A stretch of DNA of 64,000 nt from Dyella choica. Lineage in GTDB: Bacteria; Pseudomonadota; Gammaproteobacteria; Xanthomonadales; Rhodanobacteraceae. Location: assembly GCF_003977665.1 (NCBI RefSeq), contig NZ_RYYV01000001.1, positions 372,001 through 436,000 on the forward strand. The letters are read 5' to 3'. Numbering within the stretch: the first letter of the stretch is position 1; the number at the start of each line of letters is the position of its first letter. Position numbers and translations under genes: made by a program. Shown one piece after another: positions 1,436 through 14,424 of this stretch. The notes under the pieces are model-generated. The model was not told where the DNA came from. It ran no database searches and worked only from the letters and a program-made list of their open reading frames with translations.

Positions 1436-2194
1436 ATGCTAAACAAAGCCCTTGCCGTTGCGATCGCAACGGCTGCACTTCTGTCAGCAGCCGTATCCCC
1501 AGTGCGGGCTGAGCCAGTCAAGAACGTCGTCATCGTCCACGGCGCCTTCGCCGACGGTTCCGGATGGCAGCGTGTCGCCGACCTTCTTGGTAAGGACGGC
1601 TATAAGGTCAGCATGGTGCAGGAGCCGCTGACATCACTTACCGACGATGTCGCAGCGACCCAAAGGGTGCTGGATCAGCAACAGGGCCCCACTCTTCTGG
1701 TCGGCCACAGCTATGGCGGAGTGGTCATCACCGAAGCGGGCAACGCACCGAATGTCGCCGGCCTCGTCTACATCGCCGCTTTCATCCCCGACCACGGCGA
1801 GAACGCAGTCGGCCTGCTCTCGCAGGCTCCCCCTGCCAACAAGGACATGCGCGCCACCAAGGACGATTTCCTGTATCTGGATCCGGCCGCCTTCCCCGCC
1901 GATTTCGCTGCCGATGTTCCGTCTGCCCAGGCGAACTTCATGGCCCATTCCCAACCCATGCTGGCCAAGGCCGCCGCAGGCGCAACGGTGACGACACCCG
2001 CCTGGCGCCAAAAGAAGAGCTGGGCACTGATCGCGACTCGCGACCACAACCTCAATCCCGATCTCGAACGCAGCATGGCCAAGCGGGCCGGCAGCGAAAC
2101 GATCGAAATTCCCGCCAGCCACGCGGTCTATCTTTCCAAGCCGAATGAAGTGGCGCGTTTGATAGAGCGGGCAGCGAAGGCCTCCAGCCAGTAA
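1436..2194 (+). CDS. Secreted alpha/beta hydrolase with intact Ser-Asp-His triad
   Basis: This 252-residue protein starts at ATG 1436 behind an AGGAGA site. Residues 1-25 form a signal peptide ending VRA, so it is exported. The mature part is a compact alpha/beta hydrolase: 'VVIVHGAFADGSGW' supplies the oxyanion region, the nucleophile elbow is GHSYGG with Ser92, and Asp203 and His229 ('ASHAVY') complete the triad. It resembles the short esterase/hydrolase group related to plant methylesterase and hydroxynitrile-lyase folds; the substrate is unknown. A paralogue lies at 12216-12971 with the triad positions at the same residue numbers but Ser92 replaced by Asp. It is divergent from the ArsR gene. 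Confidence 0.9.
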   Translation: MLNKALAVAIATAALLSAAVSPVRAEPVKNVVIVHGAFADGSGWQRVADLLGKDGYKVSMVQEPLTSLTDDVAATQRVLDQQQGPTLLVGHSYGGVVITEAGNAPNVAGLVYIAAFIPDHGENAVGLLSQAPPANKDMRATKDDFLYLDPAAFPADFAADVPSAQANFMAHSQPMLAKAAAGATVTTPAWRQKKSWALIATRDHNLNPDLERSMAKRAGSETIEIPASHAVYLSKPNEVARLIERAAKASSQ

Positions 2195-2226
2195 CCCATT
2201 CCTACAACATGACTCGCCATGTCCTT

Positions 2227-2355
2227 CTCCCTCTCCTGCTTGCAGGGGAGGGGCGGGGTGGGGTTGTACGAGCTTGCCGCCATGTTCAAGTTCATCGCGA
2301 GGTTGTTTCACTTCACCCCACCCCAACCCTCCCCTACTACACGTAGGGGAGGGAG
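2227..2355. repeat. G-rich inverted intergenic repeat (family B), long copy
   Basis: The left part pairs CTCCCTCTCCTGC with a G-rich arm, followed by a GGGGTGGGGT tract. The right part mirrors it (CACCCCACCCC...CCCTCCCCTAC) and closes with a second small hairpin around 2338-2355. The segment after the left G tract (gtacgagcttgc... to ttcatcgc) is found again at 23347-23418, and the bare hairpin recurs at 61912-61943. It is therefore a dispersed repeat rather than a simple terminator, though it could terminate the hydrolase transcript. The rest of 2195-2529 shows no gene. Confidence 0.75.
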
Positions 2356-2529
2356 CAGATAGCAGCAAACTGAGGTTCGACGTCAATCAGGGAACTCAAT
2401 GAAGATGCCCCGTTTCACTAGCATGGGGATCATGTCTGTTCCGGGCGAAGGCGATAAGAAACAGCAGCGAAGCCTGGCACCGTAAGGCGCCAGGTCGCTG
2501 ACAGAACGCTAGATAGTCTGCCCTCCCCC

Positions 2530-2757
2530 CTAGTGATGGCGTTCCAACCTTGCGCTTCCGTTCTTGGCATTCACACGAGCCACCTTGTGGAGGTCTGTGA
2601 ATGGCACAGCCTCAAGGTCCTTGGGTACTTCAAGGACTTCGTGCTTCTCACCCTTCGATGGGACGTAATGCACCGTGAAATCAGCTCCACGCATTTTTTC
2701 CGGGTTGAACATGGTAAGAATGGTGCCGTCCGCGTCATAGCTGACTGCAAGTTTCAT
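2530..2757 (-). CDS. Small protein of unknown function
   Basis: This 75-residue protein starts at ATG 2757 with a good AAGGGGCAG site before it. It is a soluble, charged, beta-rich sequence beginning MKLAVSYDADGTILTMFNPE and ending in His-His. I do not recognise a family. It follows the gene at 2817-3071 on the same strand after 59 bases, so the two are probably co-transcribed. The ribosome site, the clean start and this arrangement support a real gene, but a function cannot be given. Confidence 0.6.
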   Translation of the reverse strand: MKLAVSYDADGTILTMFNPEKMRGADFTVHYVPSKGEKHEVLEVPKDLEAVPFTDLHKVARVNAKNGSARLERHH

Positions 2758-2816
2758 GATCTGCCCCTTATGCCGTTGGATTGGTGTTGCTAGTCGCCGA
2801 TGCTGGCATTCAGCGA

Positions 2817-3071
2817 CTAATTGCTCCCGACTTGCAGGTTGTAATAGGTGGAATTCGGACCATTGTTCTTGACCGTGTAGCCAAACGAATACTGGCCACC
2901 GTTGTTCAAGCTTACGGACTCCGACCCGGCATAAAGCAAAGAAGCCCCGGTATTCAGCGGCTGGGGCTGAATGAACGTGTCACCTTTCCAGCCGGGATTA
3001 TTCCAGGTTGTGATCCAGCCCTGTGACTGGCCGTTGGCGATGTAAATGTTTCCAAGTGTGATGGATGACAT
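2817..3071 (-). CDS. Small Gly/Asn-rich protein of unknown function
   Basis: This 84-residue protein starts at ATG 3071, preceded by a GAGAGG site; a longer frame from 3113 has no better site. The sequence is rich in Gly, Asn, Ser and aromatic residues (for example 'ITTWNNPGWKGDTF' and 'GQYSFGYTVKNNGPNSTYYNL'). The alternating polar/aromatic pattern suggests an all-beta sandwich. There is no signal peptide or membrane segment, and I do not recognise a family. It is the first gene of a two-gene unit with 2530-2757. A weak -35-like TTGACG (complement of 3358-3363) lies about 290 bases upstream. Confidence 0.6.
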   Translation of the reverse strand: MSSITLGNIYIANGQSQGWITTWNNPGWKGDTFIQPQPLNTGASLLYAGSESVSLNNGGQYSFGYTVKNNGPNSTYYNLQVGSN

Positions 3072-4374
3072 GTCAAATACCTCTCTCTTGGCTTCGCGGA
3101 AACCGCGTCCCATTCAAGAACACGCTCTTTGACCGCTGCGCTCGTTTTGAGCGGCAGTGCTGGTGCTGCGGTGACGCCGACTTACGTTTTGCAACGCAAA
3201 ATCCCAAGTCGAAGCTGTGACGCTAATTAGGAGGACGCACGAACTGCGTCGGGCACAAGGTGGCGATGCTGGAAGTCGCCACAAAACAGGGTCGGTTCAA
3301 ATTGAAGCTAACGACACAACCAAGTCGTTAAAGACTATCAATTGGCATGTAATCCACGCGTCAATATTGTTTTAAGAAGAGTCTCTTGGCCGGGGACACG
3401 GTCATTCAGCTCTGCCTCCCTCTTTCCACCTAATCATTACCCAAAAGAATTTCCACTGACCATGCTCACGCCGTAGTAAACGCAGCATCTCGCCATGCAT
3501 CGATGAAATCGGCCTGTCGCTTCCCTTCCGAAAGCCGGCATCGAAGTAGCCCTATTCGAATGCCCAATCTCCGGTGACGCGGATGTTTGGAGTGCCTTCG
3601 CGTTGTTCATGAGCGTAACGCGCACTTCCAGTTCGCGCAGTTCCTCGATCCCGGCAAGATCCGCAGGATCATTGATGCCTCGGTAATCCATTGTCGATGC
3701 GCTGGCAACACCGCACGCATGACACTATCAAGCGAGTGTCCATCGAGCATGCCAACGACAAAAACCAATGTGTATCGCCCCATCCTCTTCAGTTGTATCA
3801 ACTAAACCTCTTCTTTATGGATCTGACAGAATTTCCCGTCGGAATCGCGTCGACATCGCCATCACCGCAATACGCCCGCATCCAAAATGCCGCCTCCTAC
3901 AAGATACTTCACCACCCCTTCACGGACATGCCGGTGATATACGTGCCACTTATTCCGTGCGCTACGCATTCCTAAGGAAGCAAGGGGGGCTGCATGGTTG
4001 GTCATACGATGCACTTGCGCTGCATGGTCCGATATCGCTCGGCGAAGCGGATACCCGCATCGATGTAATCACGCGTCGGCGGCTGGGCAGACACCGATTA
4101 ACCGCGCAAACATTGCCGCTGCAAATTAATACCTGCTTTGAGGCGAAGACCCATCTTCGCCCTTGATATCTACTCGCCGCTCAAATGGAAGGTCACGGGT
4201 AGCGCGGCGTTTTTTCCGGCACTACGACCACAAAGAGATTGGTGGGCCATCATCGGGCCCTTCGCGTAGGGAGCTCGGCGCCAAGCCGCAAAAGCTCTTG
4301 GCCGAGTTGTTACATATTGTGAGAAGTGAAGAGGTTACGGCTGCGCAACATCAAACCAGGAGGATGAGCTAGCT
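3072..4374. other. 1.3-kb region without a convincing gene
   Basis: The longest open frames here (3437-3691 minus, 3768-4166 plus) are short, lack ribosome sites, overlap each other in several frames and resemble no family I know. Base composition is less GC-rich than the neighbours (for example 3300-3420 and 3760-3960), which fits decayed or acquired DNA. Upstream control elements for the small gene at 3071 and for the S74 protein gene at 4375 should lie at its two ends. No tRNA, repeat or insertion sequence was seen. Confidence 0.5.
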
Positions 4375-7237: not shown

Positions 7238-8887
7238 TCACTGGATCATCGCCGTCGCGCTGCGAAGGCGATCATCGCCAGGGAAATCCGCACTGAACAT
7301 CTGCGGGCCGGAAGCGAGCACGGTTTGGTTGATGCCAAAGGAAAAAGAACCGTCCGAGCGGGTTCTCACCGTGCCTATCGGCGTCTTGATCGATTCGAGG
7401 TAGAGGAATCGCCGTCCGACCTCATGCCCTGCGTCGTCGACAAACAACACGGCGACGTAAGCGGAGTGTTCAACGTTGATGCGCGCCTCGTACGGAACTT
7501 CCAACGTAAACGCCGCACCAGGCGTTACGGGAAATTTCGCGGAATTGTTGTACACGGTACCGCTCGCATCCACGGCAATCTTGCCGCCAGGAATTTCATG
7601 AACATTCGTCCTGCCACCTCCGGCTTGAGCATTCTCATAGTAGGTGACCTTCCCAATGTTTGCGGTGACGGGGCCGGAACAAGTGCACTGGAGCTCCTTG
7701 TTCGCCCGCACGGCGAACAAGGCCGCGCGCGCATTCTTAAAGGCCGTGCTGGATAGGTTTCTGGTGGGCATCGTTTCTCCCGTCATCGCACCGATGTCGG
7801 CGATTGAGATGGGAGCGCCGCTGATCGCTGCACCCGCCGAATCGCTCAGGCGACCGGAAAGGGTCGTCCCGTTACGCATGAGTGTCATCACGCTACGCGG
7901 TCGCAGATACTCAAGCACCAGATTCGTGAGCGTACCTGCTGTTGCCTCTGGCAGATTGTGCGATGGAAGCGCCACCCAAGTCTGAAAAACCGCCTGATCC
8001 GGGATGACGCCAAGGCCGGACTCGATGTAGGTGAAATGGTCCGCCGCTGCACGAGCCCAGGATTGATCCGTTTGTCCGTCGGTGTTGCCGCCGTTGTAGA
8101 TAATGCCAAAACTTATCCGGCGTGACTTTCTGACAAAAGAAGACAGCAGCGGCAGGTTGGCCATTCCCGCCGGCGACCAGCTCACATCCGCGTGCAGGAA
8201 TTCCAGATTGAATCCAACTGCTTCGCGGTACGCATCCACCCATTCCTCGGTAGCCTGGAGAAACGCCTTCGAAGCATAGACGACTTCGATATCCCCGATC
8301 TTGACGTTGGGAAAGATGCGCTTGGCCAACTTCACATTCGGGGCCACGTCCGCAGCTACTTGCCGGACGGAAAGCCTGCAGGCGTCGCCGCCTTGATATT
8401 CATGGCCATAGTAGAGCGGCTCGTCCATGGCGATATAGGAAGGTTCTCCGCCCAGGCGTTTGACTCGCTGCAGCAATCCCTCCACCAAACCCGGCTCTCC
8501 ATAGGCCTCGGTGCGCTCCTGACAATGCTCCGACCGCGTCGCCATCCCGATCTCCAGCGCCAGTTTGATGTTGCGACGCTTGAGCTCGGAGAAAATCCGT
8601 TGCAGATCCTCGTCCCTGCCCTGCTGCACGAATCCCGGCCCTATTTTGAAGACGCGCAGGTTCGCCGCCACCGTTTTCCACTCGGAATCCGCGCGGAACA
8701 AATCCATGTAATCCTCGCTGGCGTTCCAGTTGTGAGCCGCGCGTGCGACCGGGTCCAGCGGGCTGAGCCAAACTTCATTGGCATGGGCGCTACCGTAGAC
8801 GATGCAAACGACGCACATCAGCCGAAGTACCCAAGTGCTGACGGATGGAAATTTTGCCTTGTTTCGATTTTCGAATTCGGTCCGCAT
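7238..8887 (-). CDS. Secreted protein of unknown function, possible TIM-barrel glycosidase-like
   Basis: This 549-residue protein starts at ATG 8887, with AAAGGA seven bases before it; an ATG two codons earlier (8893) is too close to the site. Residues 1 to about 36 form a signal peptide ending SAHA. The region of about residues 40-340 alternates predicted strands and helices and contains acidic segments such as 'LALEIGMATRS', 'YIAMDEPLYYG' and 'LEFLHADVSW', a pattern seen in (beta/alpha)8 glycoside hydrolases with Glu/Asp at strand ends. The last roughly 200 residues look beta-rich (two Cys at CTCSG, and a 'SGRLSDSAGAAISGAPISIADIG' segment like an Ig/carboxypeptidase-regulatory fold). No named family is assigned. 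The gene converges on 6698-7093. Confidence 0.75.
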   Translation of the reverse strand: MRTEFENRNKAKFPSVSTWVLRLMCVVCIVYGSAHANEVWLSPLDPVARAAHNWNASEDYMDLFRADSEWKTVAANLRVFKIGPGFVQQGRDEDLQRIFSELKRRNIKLALEIGMATRSEHCQERTEAYGEPGLVEGLLQRVKRLGGEPSYIAMDEPLYYGHEYQGGDACRLSVRQVAADVAPNVKLAKRIFPNVKIGDIEVVYASKAFLQATEEWVDAYREAVGFNLEFLHADVSWSPAGMANLPLLSSFVRKSRRISFGIIYNGGNTDGQTDQSWARAAADHFTYIESGLGVIPDQAVFQTWVALPSHNLPEATAGTLTNLVLEYLRPRSVMTLMRNGTTLSGRLSDSAGAAISGAPISIADIGAMTGETMPTRNLSSTAFKNARAALFAVRANKELQCTCSGPVTANIGKVTYYENAQAGGGRTNVHEIPGGKIAVDASGTVYNNSAKFPVTPGAAFTLEVPYEARINVEHSAYVAVLFVDDAGHEVGRRFLYLESIKTPIGTVRTRSDGSFSFGINQTVLASGPQMFSADFPGDDRLRSATAMIQ

Positions 8888-9104
8888 GATCATCCTTTGC
8901 GATGGCTTCAACCGGGGTTCCACGAGCACCGTGCATCCATTGACTGAATTCGCAGTCGAATGTGGACATCCCGCCTATGCTTTCAGCACCTGCCTTGGCT
9001 GTCAAAGGGCCAGTTCAGGTGCGTACCTGTTGAACCCAAGCACGCGTTTTGGAAGCCCAACCGGGTTCACATCCGCCGGAATGCCAGGAACGAGGTGGCC
9101 GCTG

Positions 9105-9520: not shown

Positions 9521-9943
9521 GTGTATCTAGGCGCCGTCGTCGGCGACATGTTTTGCATAGGGGGAAGTATTGCCGAAGTCTTTGGCGGTGAGCTTGCCGG
9601 CGAGCTCATCAACTGCGCGGGGATACTGATAGCCGCACCGTTCCAGGTCACGGGTGGCGCTATCGACAGCATCAAGGAAGAGAGTGAACTGAAAAATCAA
9701 GCAAAGGAATATCTAAAGCAAGCGAATGAGCTCGGTAACGCCGAGACACGGGATAAACCGGACGGTTTGCATAGAATCCGATCGCTGGGTGAAACCGGCG
9801 GACTGGATGACAAGACCATCGACGCGCTGGTCGATAATGCCGGCGTCTTTTCATCGTCACCCGACAAAGCCGAGGAGTACTTGCGCGAGCTGAGCAAGTT
9901 GCCCCAGCGAAGCCGCGGCTCTTTTAAGCTAGGGATGCTCTGA
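9521..9943 (+). CDS. Hypothetical protein, 5' end uncertain
   Basis: The first in-frame start is GTG 9521, giving 140 residues, but the same frame is open back to 9446 and reads as plausible protein there (APACGCKAPGTSQDLSKSLNDP). The true N-terminus may therefore have been lost or frameshifted. Residues about 8-45 are hydrophobic and Gly-rich (GDMFCIGGSIAEVFGGELAG), followed by a charged helical part (KEESELKNQAKEYLKQANELGN) and 'DDKTIDALVDNAGVF'. I do not recognise a family. The last codons and the stop (TGA 9941-9943) lie inside the left arm of the inverted-repeat element at 9929-10166, so the C-terminus was probably altered by that insertion. Confidence 0.5.
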   Translation: MYLGAVVGDMFCIGGSIAEVFGGELAGELINCAGILIAAPFQVTGGAIDSIKEESELKNQAKEYLKQANELGNAETRDKPDGLHRIRSLGETGGLDDKTIDALVDNAGVFSSSPDKAEEYLRELSKLPQRSRGSFKLGML

Positions 9944-10166
9944 TCTATTCCACGTGCCCGGCCTTCTGGACGTCACCCCGTCATTCAAATTTAAGATGTG
10001 GGGGCCGAACTGTATACGCGTCTGGTGGAGCGTAGGCTGGGATGGCAATCCCAGCATCGCGCGGCTGTAGGCATGGCAATGCTGGGTTTCTCAACCCAGC
10101 CTACGCTCCGCCAGACGCGCATACAGGGCGGTGACGGGTACGTGGAATAGATCAGAGCATCCCTAG
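9929..10166. mobile_element. 238-bp MITE-like element with 32-base terminal inverted repeats
   Basis: The left end (9929-9960) and right end (10135-10166) are 32-base inverted copies with a single mismatch; each contains GGGATGCTCTGATCTATTCC on one strand. The interior carries an intergenic palindrome of the GTAGGCTGGG family (10031-10105). No transposase is encoded. Part of the right end (GACGGGTACGTGGAATGGATCA) recurs at 26888-26909 next to another palindrome copy. I infer a non-autonomous element. No target-site duplication could be defined by eye. Confidence 0.6.
10031..10105. repeat. Intergenic palindrome, GTAGGCTGGG family, copy 1
   Basis: CGTAGGCTGGGATGGCAATCCCAGC at the left and GCTGGGTTTCTCAACCCAGCCTACG at the right are each small hairpins and are inverted copies of one another, giving a cruciform-like unit. 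This copy extends further on both sides (GCGTCTGGTGGAG... and its near-complement), inside the MITE-like element. Confidence 0.85.
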
Positions 10167-10214
10167 GGGGCCGGAACTTCCGCCTAGCTCTTCAACGCGA
10201 GCGATGCGCCTAGA

Positions 10215-10967
10215 TCATCCATGGATCTCCACGCTCGCCACGATGTCGGAAGCCATCCAGGCGGCCAGAAGACTGCCGGCGCGAGTAACGCCCTCTGCTT
10301 CGCCAAGGTGCTCAACGACGACATCACACATGGCGTTGAAGTCTCCATCATTCAGCAGCGATAGGAGCGCCGCGCGTTCAATCGCATCGACCTGTCTGAG
10401 CTGTGATGAAAACCCGCGACGCCAGACAATTACGCCGGCTGGCGTATCGAGCATTTCGGCCTCGATCGCCTCAGTCTGATGGTGCAATGAGGACCAGACG
10501 TCAACGGCATTGGTGGTTGCGACGTGCTGACGAAAGCTTGGCGTGAGACGAAGGCGTGCGTGGTCCCAGTCAATGTCACCCAATGCCTGGATGGTCAGGG
10601 TCGTTGCGTCTGGCGCCACGAAGCACTCCGAAAGTGTCCACTCGATCCACGCAAGTTCGTCCAGATCCGGGTTGTCCGGGTATATCACACGCAAGGTCTG
10701 GCGAAAGTCCGCGCCATAGTCGTCCAGGGTCCACGACGACGGCGGATGAAGGTCGATGTGACGGATGGCTGTCTGTAGAAAGGCGCCCTCACCCATTCGG
10801 CTGAGAAGTTGCGGATAGCTCGCCTTGAGGACATTCACCAGCTGGGAACGATAGTTGTTCTGATAAGCTGCAAGCCCGCGCGGGGAAACAAGTCGGCGTT
10901 GGAGACGATTTTCGTCACCCGTGTTGACCAGCCAATGGTGAAAATCCCGCTGCATGTCGGCCAACAT
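10215..10967 (-). CDS. bufC: BufC/HvfC-type (DUF2063) partner protein of bufferin maturation
   Basis: This 250-residue protein starts at ATG 10967, with AGGAGG seven bases before it; the ATG shares one base with the TGA of bufB. It begins 'MQRDFHHWLV' and has the family hallmark 'GLAAYQNNYRSQLVNVLKASYPQLLSRMGEGAF', typical of the DUF2063 (BufC/HvfC) N-terminal helical domain, followed by a second alpha/beta domain of about residues 100-250. In characterised bufferin systems, BufC is the partner of the BufB oxidase and helps present the precursor peptide for Cys modification. It is cytoplasmic and last in the operon. No DNA-binding role is implied despite older 'putative DNA-binding' names. 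Confidence 0.9.
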   Translation of the reverse strand: MLADMQRDFHHWLVNTGDENRLQRRLVSPRGLAAYQNNYRSQLVNVLKASYPQLLSRMGEGAFLQTAIRHIDLHPPSSWTLDDYGADFRQTLRVIYPDNPDLDELAWIEWTLSECFVAPDATTLTIQALGDIDWDHARLRLTPSFRQHVATTNAVDVWSSLHHQTEAIEAEMLDTPAGVIVWRRGFSSQLRQVDAIERAALLSLLNDGDFNAMCDVVVEHLGEAEGVTRAGSLLAAWMASDIVASVEIHG

Positions 10968-11812
10968 CACGCTGCCTCCTGCAAGGGAAGATGGCGTTGG
11001 CGCAAATTGCGCGCAAGGTCGAGTTCGCCCAACAGATCGGCAAGCGGCGGAATGGCGTCATCGCGTTCGATCATGGTGGCGACAGGGCCTAGCACGGACC
11101 CAGCTCTCGCATACAGCGCCCACACGTCCACGCCTACGGGTTGGTCATGGGTGTCGATCAGCATGTCCGAGCCCTGGGTGTGGCCGGCCAGGTGGATCTG
11201 GCGCACGCGGTCAACCGGTATGCCGCTCAGGTAGGCCTCCACGTCCCAGCCATGGTTCCTTGCGCTGACGAATAGGTTGTTGACGTCGAGCAAGAGGCCG
11301 CAGCCCGTACGTCGGGTCATTTCGCTGAGGAACTCCCACTCCGTCAAGGTGGAAGCCGTGAAGGTGACGTAACTCGACGGGTTCTCGAACAGCATCGGCC
11401 TGCCGACGGCCTCCTGCGCGGCGTGAATGTTCCGGCAGACGATGGCCAGCGTTTCCTCCGTAAAGGGAAGAGGAAGCAGGTCGTGCGAATTGAATTGCTC
11501 GAAGCGAGACCAGCTCAAATGGTCCGATACGAACAAGGGGTCAAGCCGATCCACCACAGAACGCAGGCGGCGCAGATACGCCGGCTTCAAGCCGTCCGCC
11601 GAGCCAATGGACATCGATACGCCGTGGAGCGCGACGGGATAGCGCTCGCGTACGCGGCGCAGGATATCCAACGGCTGCCCGCCATCGACCATGAAGTTCT
11701 CGGAGATCACTTCCACGAAATCGACCGGCACCTCGGTTTCAAGAAAGTCGTGGTAATGCTCTTTGCGCAAGCCGAGACCGAAGCCGGCAAAGGTGGGAAG
11801 CGATGTGGACAT
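10967..11812 (-). CDS. bufB: BufB: MNIO (DUF692) multinuclear iron oxidase for bufferin maturation
   Basis: This 281-residue TIM-barrel protein starts at ATG 11812, with AGGAG seven bases upstream; a TTG start at 11830 is less likely. Diagnostic DUF692 segments are 'GFGLGLRKEHYHDFL', 'DFVEVISENFM', 'ALHGVSMSIGSADG', 'SDHLSWS', 'LFENPSSYV', 'CGLLLDVNNLFVSA' and 'IHLAGH'; their His, Asp, Glu and Asn residues are the expected iron ligands. In known bufferin pathways this enzyme converts Cys residues of the precursor to thiooxazole groups that bind copper. It lies between bufA2 and bufC, and a strong hairpin separates it from bufA2, which would lower its expression relative to the peptide. Confidence 0.93.
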   Translation of the reverse strand: MSTSLPTFAGFGLGLRKEHYHDFLETEVPVDFVEVISENFMVDGGQPLDILRRVRERYPVALHGVSMSIGSADGLKPAYLRRLRSVVDRLDPLFVSDHLSWSRFEQFNSHDLLPLPFTEETLAIVCRNIHAAQEAVGRPMLFENPSSYVTFTASTLTEWEFLSEMTRRTGCGLLLDVNNLFVSARNHGWDVEAYLSGIPVDRVRQIHLAGHTQGSDMLIDTHDQPVGVDVWALYARAGSVLGPVATMIERDDAIPPLADLLGELDLARNLRQRHLPLQEAA

Positions 11813-11839
11813 GGCGATGCTCCTGGGCAAGGAAAGGCG

Positions 11840-11864
11840 CTGGACCCGCTCGCAGCGGGTCCAG
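11840..11864 (-). terminator. Intercistronic hairpin between bufA2 and bufB
   Basis: CTGGACCCGCT and AGCGGGTCCAG form a perfect 11-base stem with a CGC loop, starting eight bases after the bufA2 stop and ending 28 bases before the bufB start. There is no T-run, so it should act as a partial terminator or as a 3' stabiliser for the upstream peptide mRNA. This is a common device in operons that need more precursor peptide than enzyme. Confidence 0.6.
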
Positions 11865-11872
11865 CCAGGCGA

Positions 11873-12157
11873 TCACTTCGGTTCGGTCAGCGTGCCGCCG
11901 GCTGCGGCACACTCGCTCGGGGTCTTTACGATGACGCCCTGGCCCTTGCAGTCGTTGAGGCCCTTGCAGTCGTGCTTGGCCATGGCGCAAAGGCTTTGGC
12001 CCTTGCAGGCGTTAGCTCCGTAACAGCGGGTCGGCTGTTCTTTGTGGCCCGACTGATCGGCGGCGTGCGCAGCACCGTTGAGTGATGCGATAGCGAGTGC
12101 GACGACGGCGGCCGCCGCAGCGAAACTGCTGCGGGACTTGGTGGTGATGGTGCTCAT
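11873..12157 (-). CDS. bufA2: Bufferin-type metallophore precursor, KGxNxCKGxG type (BufA2-like)
   Basis: This 94-residue protein starts at ATG 12157. Residues 1-33 form a signal peptide (hydrophobic Ala/Val core, AHA site). The mature part has six Cys (C45, C51, C57, C64, C70, C83) in the pattern CYGANAC, KGQSLC, KHDC, KGLNDCKGQG, followed by a GG-containing tail. This is the known layout of periplasmic bufferin precursors, in which a MNIO enzyme modifies Cys residues before export and the product binds copper. The gene is directly upstream of bufB and bufC. Assignment to the BufA2 rather than BufA1 subfamily rests on the CKGxG pattern and is less certain than the bufferin call. Confidence 0.85.
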   Translation of the reverse strand: MSTITTKSRSSFAAAAAVVALAIASLNGAAHAADQSGHKEQPTRCYGANACKGQSLCAMAKHDCKGLNDCKGQGVIVKTPSECAAAGGTLTEPK

Positions 12158-12215
12158 GAGTCGTTTTCCTGTTGGGTAAGGGTTTAGGTCAAACCATTGG
12201 GGGTATGACGCGGCG

Positions 12216-12971
12216 CTACTTCAAGCTCTTCGCCGCGTTCTCGATCACTTGCGCAACCTGTTCCGGCTGCGACATGTAGACGAGGTGGCTGCCCTTGATC
12301 TCGGTGATCCTGGAACCGGCTCGCTGATACATCGAGCGCTGCAGATCGGGGCTGTAGAAGTGATCTTCGGTCGCAACCACCGCCCAGCTGGGCTTGTTCT
12401 TCCAGGCAGCCGCTTCGGTAACGGCGCCCAGCGCAGGAACCGTTGCGGGCACCTGGGAAATGGCCAGGTAGTTGGTGCGGTTGGTAGTCAGATCGTTGCC
12501 TAGGTCGGCGCCGAAGTGCTTCTCGTTGACGTAAACAAATCCGTCCCAGGAGGCTTCGATGTCGTTGCTGGGCTCCGGCACGGAGTTGACTAGTATGCTC
12601 ACGCTTTCACCCACGCTCGGCGCTACCGCGGCCACGTAGACCAGGCCTTTCACCTTGTCGCGATTGCCGGCTACCGTGATCACCGCGCCGCCGTAGTCAC
12701 TGCCTACCAGCAAGGTCGGGCCACTCTCCTTGCGCAACTGGCGATAGACGGCTTCGGCGTCATTACTCAGCGTGTCGATGCGCGGTTGCACGACATTTAC
12801 GCTGTAACCATGCTTGGTAAGGATGTCGTGGACGACGCGCCAGCCCGAACCGTCGACGAAGGCGCCGGGGACGATGACGATGTTCTTGACGCCTTCGGGG
12901 GCGTCGCCAGCAGCGAACGCGGGTGCGGTCGACGCCAGCATGAGCAACAACAAACTCAATGGCTTTCGCAT
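12216..12971 (-). CDS. Secreted alpha/beta hydrolase-fold protein with Asp in place of the nucleophile Ser
   Basis: This 251-residue protein starts at ATG 12971. Residues 1-20 are a signal peptide (AFA site), so it is periplasmic. It aligns along its length with the hydrolase at 1436-2194, without gaps between the triad positions. The oxyanion segment ('IVPGAFVDGSGW'), Asp203 and His229 ('GSHLVY') are kept, but the elbow is GSDYGG instead of GHSYGG, so residue 92 is Asp and residue 91 Ser. An Asp nucleophile with Asp/His partners is the triad of haloalkane dehalogenases and epoxide hydrolases. Either the chemistry has changed or the enzyme is inactive. It sits inside the bufferin operon between doxX and bufA2 (39 and 58 bases away). 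Confidence 0.88.
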   Translation of the reverse strand: MRKPLSLLLLMLASTAPAFAAGDAPEGVKNIVIVPGAFVDGSGWRVVHDILTKHGYSVNVVQPRIDTLSNDAEAVYRQLRKESGPTLLVGSDYGGAVITVAGNRDKVKGLVYVAAVAPSVGESVSILVNSVPEPSNDIEASWDGFVYVNEKHFGADLGNDLTTNRTNYLAISQVPATVPALGAVTEAAAWKNKPSWAVVATEDHFYSPDLQRSMYQRAGSRITEIKGSHLVYMSQPEQVAQVIENAAKSLK

Positions 12972-13010
12972 GATGTTTCCTGAGGAAGTGAAATTGATGG
13001 GAATGGGGAG

Positions 13011-13454
13011 TCACGCAACGGAAGGCGACCGTTGCAGCGATCGGTTGCGACGGATGTGATCCATCGACCACGCGCCGCCGCCGCGGACCACGAGCGGAAG
13101 CAACAGAGCGGCCCAGCTAAGGTGCGTTGGCCATGCGTCCGGGTAGACGAAGATCTCGATGACCGTGGTCATGCCCAGCAAGGCGAGCGCGGACAGCCGC
13201 GTGCACAAGCCCAGCACCAGCAGCACGGGAAACAGGTGCTCCGCGCCTGTGGACAAACGTGCGGCGATGTCCGAGGGAATCAGTGGCAGCGCGTACTCGC
13301 TGGCAAACAGCTGATAGGTGGACTCTTTGATCGTCAGGAGGCCTTCCACTTTCGTACGGCCCGACTGGAAGAACACCGCAGCGATGCCCAGCCGTGCCAT
13401 CAGCAATAGCATGGCCTCCGGAACGAAACGTTGCGGCGCGGGCCATGCGCTCAT
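13011..13454 (-). CDS. DoxX-family inner-membrane protein of the bufferin operon
   Basis: This 147-residue protein starts at ATG 13454, overlapping the end of the bufA1 gene by four bases (ATGA). Four hydrophobic segments (about residues 15-32, 65-83, 88-106 and 110-125) and the motif '[17 protein letters not shown]' place it in the DoxX family. DoxX proteins are regular members of bufferin/gig operons, where they are thought to act in the inner membrane; their exact role is not known. The four-base overlap points to translational coupling with the metallophore precursor. Confidence 0.9.
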
Positions 13455-13726
13455 GGCTTGGCCTCAAGCGAACCGTACCCCTTGGGGGTCTTGAAGGTCG
13501 TACAGGTGCCCTTGTCGACCAGGATCCAGGCATTGCCCTGGTAGTCGACTTTGGCAGTGCCCGCACACGTCGTACCAGGGCCGGCGGCGCAATCGTTCTT
13601 GCCGGCGAGCGCCACGCCGTAACATTTTTCCATCGGCTTCTTGGCGTTCTCGGCATGACCGGCCACGGCGAAGCAGGCCAGGCTGAGGGCGAATGTGGCG
13701 GCCAGTGCCGCGCGAGTGCTTTTCAT
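13451..13726 (-). CDS. bufA1: DUF2282 bufferin-type metallophore precursor (BufA1-like)
   Basis: This 91-residue protein starts at ATG 13726 after an AAGGA site. Residues 1-25 are a signal peptide (GHA site). The mature part contains the DUF2282 signature: '[32 protein letters not shown]' with C35, C46 and C54, then 'VDKGTC' with C75. In studied systems such proteins receive thiooxazole modifications from a BufB/BufC pair, are exported and bind copper in the periplasm. It is the first gene of the operon, so the only bufB/bufC pair here (10.2-11.8 kb) must serve both this precursor and the second one, or a second pair lies elsewhere. The BufA1 label follows DUF2282 membership. Confidence 0.88.
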
Positions 13727-14121
13727 GATGATTTCCTTGGGAAGGTGGGGAATTTTTCGGCTCAGCGCAGCTCAAGCCACAGCGATACGCTGTTACGGTT
13801 AGCTTTAGCGCGGATCTTGTCCGCGCATCGGGTGTTGGGCATCGGGTAACTCCGGTATGACTGGAAATGCCGGTCGCGACCCACTGAATCAGGTCTTACG
13901 CGAGGAGGCTGGGTGGGCAGAAAACTACCCCCTACCCGATTCATTCAGTAGCCGGTAAATTCGAGAGGCGCCCTTTCACAGGGTGAGAGGCTCAGGACGA
14001 AAAAGAGGCCCGCTTTCGACCAAAGCGGACCGCTTCGACGGACGATGTACGCTGACGCGCTTGCGTGTAAAAGATGAGCCTGGCTGCGTATCGTCATTGA
14101 CCCGAGCGGGGCATCGCACCA
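13727..14121. promoter_or_regulatory. Leader and promoter region of the bufferin operon; otherwise no gene
   Basis: Upstream of bufA1 the leader holds two small hairpins: GCGCGGA/TCCGCGC (13808-13826) and CAGCG/CGCTG (about 13780-13793). I could not fix a promoter. An extracytoplasmic-function sigma factor gene, which often accompanies bufferin operons, is not encoded in this window. Nothing else is seen in the stretch up to the ABM gene. Confidence 0.4.
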
Positions 14122-14424
14122 ATGACCCACTACACCTACATTTGGGAATTCATGGTCAAAGCAGGAAAAGAGGCTGAGTTCGTTGAGCACTACAGCCCGG
14201 ATGGGACGTGGGCAAAGCTATTCAAGCAAGCTCCTGGATACGTCGAAACATTACTGCTCAAGGACAGGAAGGATGGACAGCGCTATTTCACTGTGGACCG
14301 TTGGCGCAGCGAAGCGGCCTATCAAGCCTTCAGATCCCGGTTCGCTGACTCGTATGCCGCTCTTGACCGGGTCTGTGAAGACCTGACCACTTCGGAGAAG
14401 CCAATGGGCTGTTTCGATGAATGA
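14122..14424 (+). CDS. Antibiotic biosynthesis monooxygenase (ABM) domain protein
   Basis: This 100-residue protein starts at ATG 14122. It has the ferredoxin-like ABM fold: first strand 'YIWEFMVKAGKEAEFVEHY', central 'GYVETLLLKD', and 'YFTVDRWRSEAAYQAFRSRF', with the W-x-S-x-x-x-Y/F element of the family. ABM proteins are small cytoplasmic dimers acting as cofactor-independent oxygenases or as sensors; substrate unknown. The stop overlaps the start of the following glutathione transferase by eight bases, indicating a translationally coupled pair. Confidence 0.8.
   Translation: MTHYTYIWEFMVKAGKEAEFVEHYSPDGTWAKLFKQAPGYVETLLLKDRKDGQRYFTVDRWRSEAAYQAFRSRFADSYAALDRVCEDLTTSEKPMGCFDE

Follow-up and report, generated by a model that had tools for sequence, protein, structure and literature searches.

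A conserved bufferin-type cassette of Dyella choica and its relatives with two precursor families, one maturation pair and a hydrolase-fold protein that has recurrently lost its nucleophile

A 64,000-nt stretch of the Dyella choica genome (GCF_003977665.1, contig NZ_RYYV01000001.1, positions 372,001–436,000, forward strand; hereafter the window, to which coordinates refer unless a locus is named) carries at bp 10215–13726, on the minus strand, an operon of the bufferin type, bufferins being ribosomally synthesized and post-translationally modified peptides (RiPPs). In the order of transcription it comprises bufA1, doxX, a hydrolase gene, bufA2, bufB and bufC, separated by -4, 39, 58, 42 and -4 bases, i.e. 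tightly packed. These six genes are one conserved unit, in which a single BufB/BufC pair likely serves, judging from sequence comparison, precursors of two families. The most interesting result is the recurrent loss of the nucleophile from the hydrolase fold bound to this operon.

The first gene, bufA1 (bp 13451–13726), encodes a DUF2282 (Buf1-type) bufferin precursor (PF10048, 88.5 bits vs. a cut-off of 22.4), whose cysteines at 35, 46, 54 and 75 are the four Buf1 cysteines, and bufA2 (bp 11873–12157) a Buf2-type precursor (NF050166, 78.5 bits vs. 60) with six cysteines and three CKG motifs. The product of bufB (bp 10967–11830; TTG start codon, with an ATG available downstream at 11812) is a bufferin maturase of the multinuclear non-heme iron-dependent oxidative enzymes (MNIO), of Buf2 type (PF05114, 353 bits; NF050167 MNIO_BufB, 370 vs. 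310), and that of bufC (bp 10215–10970) a DUF2063/PME-type 1 partner protein (PF09836, 60 bits vs. 27). The DoxX-family membrane protein (bp 13011–13454; PF07681, 59.8 bits vs. 23.6) scored under the cut-off of the HvfX family (NF050144, 53.4 bits vs. 80), and the remaining gene (bp 12216–12971) specifies an exported protein of alpha/beta-hydrolase fold belonging to the SABP2/PytH/hydroxynitrile-lyase group (PF12697, 62 vs. 26 bits). By eye, the N-termini of BufA1, BufA2 and the hydrolase resemble Sec signal peptides. The operon thus has, all above cut-off, the precursors (PF10048, NF050166), the MNIO BufB and the PME-type 1 partner that are expected of a bufferin operon, and its products would probably buffer copper outside the inner membrane. 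The gene content, order, place and single strand given in a preliminary description of this DNA were thus borne out by the coordinates and the family matches.

The family search covered 117 genomes, with the hydrolase, the MNIO and the DUF2282 protein as queries and the regions subsequently read, and the complete six-gene order was found at 17 loci in 16 of these genomes, belonging to six genera. Since the same genes recur in the same order, the arrangement is not due to chance. When GTDB genomes were scanned with an alignment of the hydrolase, a second, named set of 67 loci emerged, 61 of which had all six genes; the complete ones belonged to Dyella, Luteibacter, Pseudomonas, Cupriavidus, Caballeronia, Massilia, Telluria and Pseudoduganella, plus three entries identified no further than Burkholderiales or Burkholderiaceae. 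Of the incomplete loci, two held the hydrolase only (L159, L166) and four were partial: two ran into a contig edge (L178, L190), one had only the hydrolase and bufA2 (L192), and one had a hydrolase fragment and lacked a bufA2 match (L206). In eight loci of the Massilia group doxX sits after bufC, and in L071 bufC is split over two frames (bp 2209–3145 of that locus, minus strand) by a frameshift or a sequencing error and was searched in pieces. Because the named loci were found via the hydrolase, the frequency of its absence is not readable from them; the two sets overlap, and their counts are kept separate throughout. Across nine locus pairs, the ratio of nonsynonymous to synonymous substitution rates (dN/dS) was at most 0.42 for each of the six genes.

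As a check independent of the hydrolase, plasmids were searched with BufA1. In the 12 regions opened, out of 232 matched records, 1) four from Paraburkholderia and one from Cupriavidus held the cassette with the hydrolase, 2) four from sphingomonads had bufA1-doxX divergent from bufA2-bufB-bufC and no hydrolase, with a sigma-70 family gene and a DUF1109 gene between both arms in the two regions that were annotated, and 3) two from Variovorax and one from Pseudomonas were standard Buf1 operons. Sixty of the 232 records with DUF2282 relatives were from Escherichia and 102 were predicted to be conjugative; bufferin-type precursors are thus carried on enterobacterial plasmids too.

The preliminary description had taken the layout for new, a view that we reject, because the Pep4 cluster of Pseudomonas (PMC8719888) has the same order, namely a DUF2282 peptide, DoxX, a hydrolase, a short peptide, DUF692 and DUF2063; by this listing the gene order has been in print since 2021. 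Pep4 is also listed with a terminal second hydrolase, which the window operon does not have: after bufC, the only open reading frames (ORFs) of at least 50 aa are small and on the minus strand (up to 77 aa), until an ORF at bp 7238–8929 that has no Pfam match. In Pseudomonas loci such as L172 (bp 7732–8319 of that locus) bufC is followed by another alpha/beta-hydrolase gene, distinct from the first, one of these being Pfam-confirmed, and this downstream cluster was present at 25 loci, 19 of them from Pseudomonas. The available text of PMC8719888 gives for Pep4 no function, no idea of a second precursor and no data on the nucleophile. The Buf1 and Buf2 operons of PMC12452194 share with the window the DUF2282 and six-cysteine precursors, the MNIO, the PME-type 1 partner and DoxX, but, in the portion of the paper at hand, not the combination of two precursor families with one Buf2-type MNIO and a hydrolase; that portion does mention tandem precursor genes, calls further conserved genes extremely rare, and merely suggests, from such tandems, that an MNIO may have more than one substrate. 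The copper-induced gigPABT operon of Cupriavidus metallidurans likewise includes a small periplasmic four-cysteine protein, a DUF2063 protein and a DoxX relative, but it has a single precursor, which is separated from doxX by the maturation genes, and a hydrolase is nowhere mentioned in the text available (PMC10304878). In the literature searched, which left most subscription papers and the first bufferin paper outside, no treatment of the operon hydrolase or of a unit with one enzyme and two precursors was found; in one account of bufferins and MNIOs, as far as its text was accessible, both uses of the word "hydrolase" refer to peptidyl-tRNA hydrolase.

Trees were built for the cassette proteins by quick searches with Shimodaira-Hasegawa-like approximate likelihood ratio (SH-aLRT) support, using the 17 family cassettes and 23 or 24 named ones chosen to span taxa; the BufB tree comprised 107 MNIOs, and those of BufA1 and BufA2 rest on few columns. 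The cassette rows formed a single clade in each tree, with support of 99 for BufB, 99 for BufC, 97 for DoxX, 90 for BufA2 and 86 for BufA1, so that the unit seems to have co-evolved. Within the BufB tree, the cassette enzymes were nested in the Buf2-type clade (99), separate from the Buf1-type MNIOs, and grouped (97) with the B2 enzymes of composite operons and with one Buf2-only enzyme (L119). By tree and by motif, therefore, bufB is of Buf2 type and BufA1 is left without an adjacent Buf1-type enzyme. GigP and GigA of the C. metallidurans operon are presumably a DUF2282 and a DUF692 protein, respectively.

The composite operons, found at seven loci of the family, are arranged bufA1-bufB1-bufC1-doxX-bufA2-bufB2-bufC2. 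The cassette looks like a reduced fusion, in which bufA1-bufB1-bufC1-doxX would have been joined to bufA2-bufB2-bufC2, with loss of bufB1 and bufC1 and gain of the hydrolase, the direction of these changes being inferred. One further locus (L088) is a composite operon minus B1, with no remnant of B1 seen and with bufA1 and bufC1 kept; here a single MNIO naturally occurs alongside two precursors and two partner proteins. As for the window itself, its hydrolase and BufB cluster with those of a species of another genus (L064; support of 99 and 96), and the usual cassette site of the family is present elsewhere in the genome of the window (L305, contig G000:C34) with its two-component system and Ohr gene and without the cassette. 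It is likely that the cassette of this genome was transferred or relocated.

Whether BufB could act on both precursors was considered at the residue beside the catalytic Asp, which determines selectivity and is Phe in Lys-Cys enzymes and Asp in Cys-Lys (BufA2) enzymes, and which is not conserved among DUF2282 enzymes, as described in the accessible part of PMC12668002. In the window BufB the Asp pair of an ERDD motif, placed by alignment, is encoded at bp 11057–11062, with the predicted catalytic Asp at bp 11060–11062 and the selectivity position, also Asp, at bp 11057–11059. Asp was found at this position in all eight composite B2 enzymes, all four sphingomonad enzymes and 26 of 27 Buf2-like enzymes of the family, and Gly in all seven composite B1 enzymes. 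The named cassettes (n = 63) had Asp in 49, Gly in 7, Ala in 6 and Glu in 1, and those on plasmids Gly in 5/5; BufA2 nevertheless retained its three CKG motifs in 13 of the 14 named cassettes in which the site had changed. These results at most hint at a relaxed selectivity of the cassette BufB. The two precursors, held to be unlike in the preliminary description, are not wholly so: single-sequence BLAST found no similarity between BufA1 and BufA2 (E = 0.17), but a comparison of profiles gave a weak one (hhalign probability 96, E = 2e-9), which is due in part to signal peptides and rests on few sequences, and NF050166 matched, under its cut-off, 2/5 BufA1-type proteins of one set and some of another.

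Several observations weigh against a BufB adapted to two precursors. In the family cassettes the site was Asp in 15 and Gly in 2 of 17, the majority thus being like ordinary Buf2 enzymes, and Asp was also present in 35 of 40 Buf2-like MNIOs of the class, which were chosen among the best matches listed in a sample of 274 genomes (the sample gives no rate for the cassette) and of which nine had no detected BufA2-like precursor. Of the five class exceptions, three accompany precursors with CEG or CAG and two (L240, L243) precursors with mostly CKG; moreover, several class enzymes with Asp are paired with precursors in which a CKG is replaced by CAG, CSG or CGG. Together these cases indicate that the site varies even where there is no second precursor and that its match to the motif is loose. 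The sphingomonad plasmids bear on the order of events: with the cassette profile, their BufB scored 472–479 and composite B2 no more than 415–445 (the sphingomonad rows are outside the trees), and all four lack B1, so that the state of one enzyme with two precursors may predate the composite operon.

BufA1 might be an unmodified four-cysteine protein or be modified in trans, and its linkage to the cassette would be regulatory only. This is an explanation that we consider rather unlikely, despite the Buf2 type of BufB in the tree and, for the most part, at the ERDD motif, and despite the pairing of MNIO subgroups with particular precursor families and the many precursors not beside an MNIO gene (both from the part of PMC12452194 available). 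A Buf1-type MNIO was present elsewhere in 5 of the 16 cassette genomes, which would allow modification by another enzyme, but none was found in the other 11. One of these (G078) has no other MNIO match at all, and its BufB carries Gly at the selectivity site; two more (G053 and G068) carry a further weak MNIO match that is not beside a DUF2282 match, a reservation with respect to the shared enzyme. In BufA1 itself, four cysteines beyond the first 22 residues were retained in 85/85 cassette rows (from overlapping sets), dN/dS was 0.04–0.29 in nine pairs, and bufA1 is linked to the cassette bufB throughout four bacterial families. A second bufB/bufC pair elsewhere in the genome, serving one of the precursors, had been named in the preliminary description as grounds for giving up the shared enzyme. 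Such a pair does exist in the genome of the window (G000:C67), but it comes with a BufA2-type precursor of its own (NF050166, 65.7 bits vs. 60) and is of Buf2 type by tree, and for these reasons it does not obviously serve BufA1, whose gene is the sole DUF2282 gene found in this genome; we do not favor it as the modifier of BufA1. From the sequences compared, one enzyme shared by both precursors is plausible, and the idea has gained a better footing than it had at the outset.

The hydrolase set consisted of 79 unique sequences above 200 bits (L195 contributes two, L192 was taken as operon-bound, and L206 was excluded). In the window copy the nucleophile elbow GHSYGG is changed to GSDYGG, the position of the catalytic Ser being taken by Asp92 (codon at bp 12696–12698), which aligns with Ser78 of PytH (Ala in the S78A entry 5y5v). 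The acid Asp203 (bp 12363–12365) and His229 (bp 12285–12287) are in place, and their counterparts were intact in 79/79 unique copies. At the nucleophile position there were 51 Ser, 18 Gly and 10 Asp, and the copies without Ser were all operon-bound (28/77), the two free-standing ones both having Ser. Among 40 paralogues picked out of roughly 150 places in the family search, 38 had Ser and 2 Cys, and none had neither. By parsimony the nucleophile changed five times, at least three of the changes being forced by starred branches, and the Asp form is common to nine unique copies of one clade, with dN/dS of 0.14–0.22 in four pairs of Asp-form hydrolases. A structure model of the window copy from 62 sequences had a mean predicted local distance difference test (pLDDT) score of 90.1, i.e. 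a confident fold; an earlier model (17 sequences, pLDDT 44.5) was discarded.

Having repeatedly lost a key catalytic residue, the operon-bound protein has probably ceased to function as a normal hydrolase, and for the window copy an ordinary serine hydrolase was ruled out by Asp92 at the elbow, though fold, His229 and Asp203 are present. An Asp at the elbow matches the hydrolases with an Asp nucleophile, such as haloalkane dehalogenase and epoxide hydrolase; none of these was among the 50 fold matches listed, which excludes nothing. The nearest known proteins include tomato methylketone synthase 1 and the SABP2/hydroxynitrile-lyase group of alpha/beta-hydrolases; these are plant enzymes, and to our knowledge no link of this group to RiPPs has been described. 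The suggestion that the hydrolase acts on the thiooxazole product is not supported, with Asp at the nucleophile position in the window, Gly in other lineages, and two copies standing free of bufferin genes; nor, of the preliminary description, are the novelty of the layout and a complete unlikeness of the precursors, whereas one MNIO/DUF2063 pair, precursors of two kinds and an exported hydrolase-fold protein do form one conserved unit. Two further alpha/beta-hydrolase observations were made: Massilia niastensis (L195) has two closely spaced hydrolases of the operon type, which carry Asp (GHDTGG) and Gly (GHGIGG), respectively, at the nucleophile position, and at bp 1436–2194 (plus strand) the window encodes another exported alpha/beta-hydrolase, which shares 47% identity with that of the operon and has a normal GHSYGG elbow.

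Directly upstream of bufA1 and on the same strand, a gene with an Ohr-type motif was present in 14 of the 17 family cassettes (13 by a stricter motif), and that of L072 was confirmed as Ohr family by scan. Beyond the Ohr gene, a divergent two-component system follows in many Dyella and Luteibacter loci; its sensor cluster was found in 18 named loci, and one sensor and one regulator were Pfam-confirmed. No sigma-70 promoter-like site was found within bp 9900–14200 of the window, and a conserved promoter motif upstream of bufA1, sought by eye, was not recognized, the conserved stretch there being the end of the Ohr-type gene. One Paraburkholderia cassette (L210) has downstream of it a gene annotated for organic hydroperoxide resistance, and another locus (L081) retains the hydrolase along with the two-component system and an OsmC/Ohr gene, the bufferin genes being absent. 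With the other free-standing copy (L080), this means that the hydrolase may have a task of its own, a point against the reading favored here. It is quite possible, at somewhat less than an even chance, that the hydrolase rides along as a passenger, co-regulated to meet stress from organic peroxides or xenobiotics, and plays no role in bufferin maturation; yet no Ohr-type motif adjoins the cassettes of the window, L070 and L076, and the nucleophile was lost only in operon-bound copies (28/77, vs. 0/2 free-standing copies and 0/40 paralogues). The absence of Ser from so many operon copies could also mean that the Asp and Gly forms are decaying pseudoenzymes without function. This we regard as very unlikely, given the low dN/dS of the Asp forms, the His and acid present in every copy, the Asp common to one clade and the confident fold of the window copy.

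Directly 3′ of the bufA2 stop codon, between bufA2 and bufB, is a stem-loop with a 12-pair stem (bp 11839–11865, minus strand). A stem of at least 7 pairs followed bufA2 in 36 of 64 named cassettes and none was found in 28, and in nine sequences chosen for holding the stem (L070, misaligned, was left out) both sides had changed at 5 of 11 pairs. This stem-loop may set the levels of precursor and enzyme apart, possibly as an attenuator or as an mRNA end. Downstream of bufC, an inverted-repeat intergenic sequence resembling repetitive extragenic palindromic elements (GGCTGGGATGGCAATCCCAGC type) was noticed by eye at about bp 10018–10140, with a similar stretch at about bp 16440.

Taken together, we hold it to be slightly more probable than the contrary that the locus is a metal/oxidative-stress operon making two periplasmic copper-buffering RiPPs via one maturation pair, with a hydrolase-fold protein that does without a serine nucleophile. 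BufB and BufC would turn the cysteines of the CKG motifs of BufA2 into 5-thiooxazoles and, most likely, would also modify the two central cysteines of BufA1; both precursors, to go by their families, would be exported via Sec and then bind excess copper. A related MNIO cluster of Microbulbifer is a point against such a role, as it was not expressed under copper stress according to the available portion of PMC12538549. The hydrolase-fold protein, in which fold, His and acid are kept and the Ser nucleophile seems dispensable, having given way to Asp or Gly in several lineages, apparently under purifying selection, would serve that periplasmic stress response through His/Asp acid-base chemistry or by binding, rather than as a serine hydrolase opening thiooxazoles. 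A further-reaching proposal, which we put forward as unlikely, is that the Buf2-type BufBC makes thiooxazoles on Buf1 and Buf2 precursors alike and that the hydrolase, its nucleophile lost three to five times, is a dedicated periplasmic bufferin partner in acid-base chemistry, handling or metal transfer; if true, the hydrolase would be a RiPP accessory protein of a new class. The cassette makes it testable whether MNIOs serve more than one precursor family, most of all in G078 and similar genomes, and the natural series of Ser, Asp and Gly, with His and acid untouched, offers a way into a non-hydrolytic role that this very common fold may have in metal stress.

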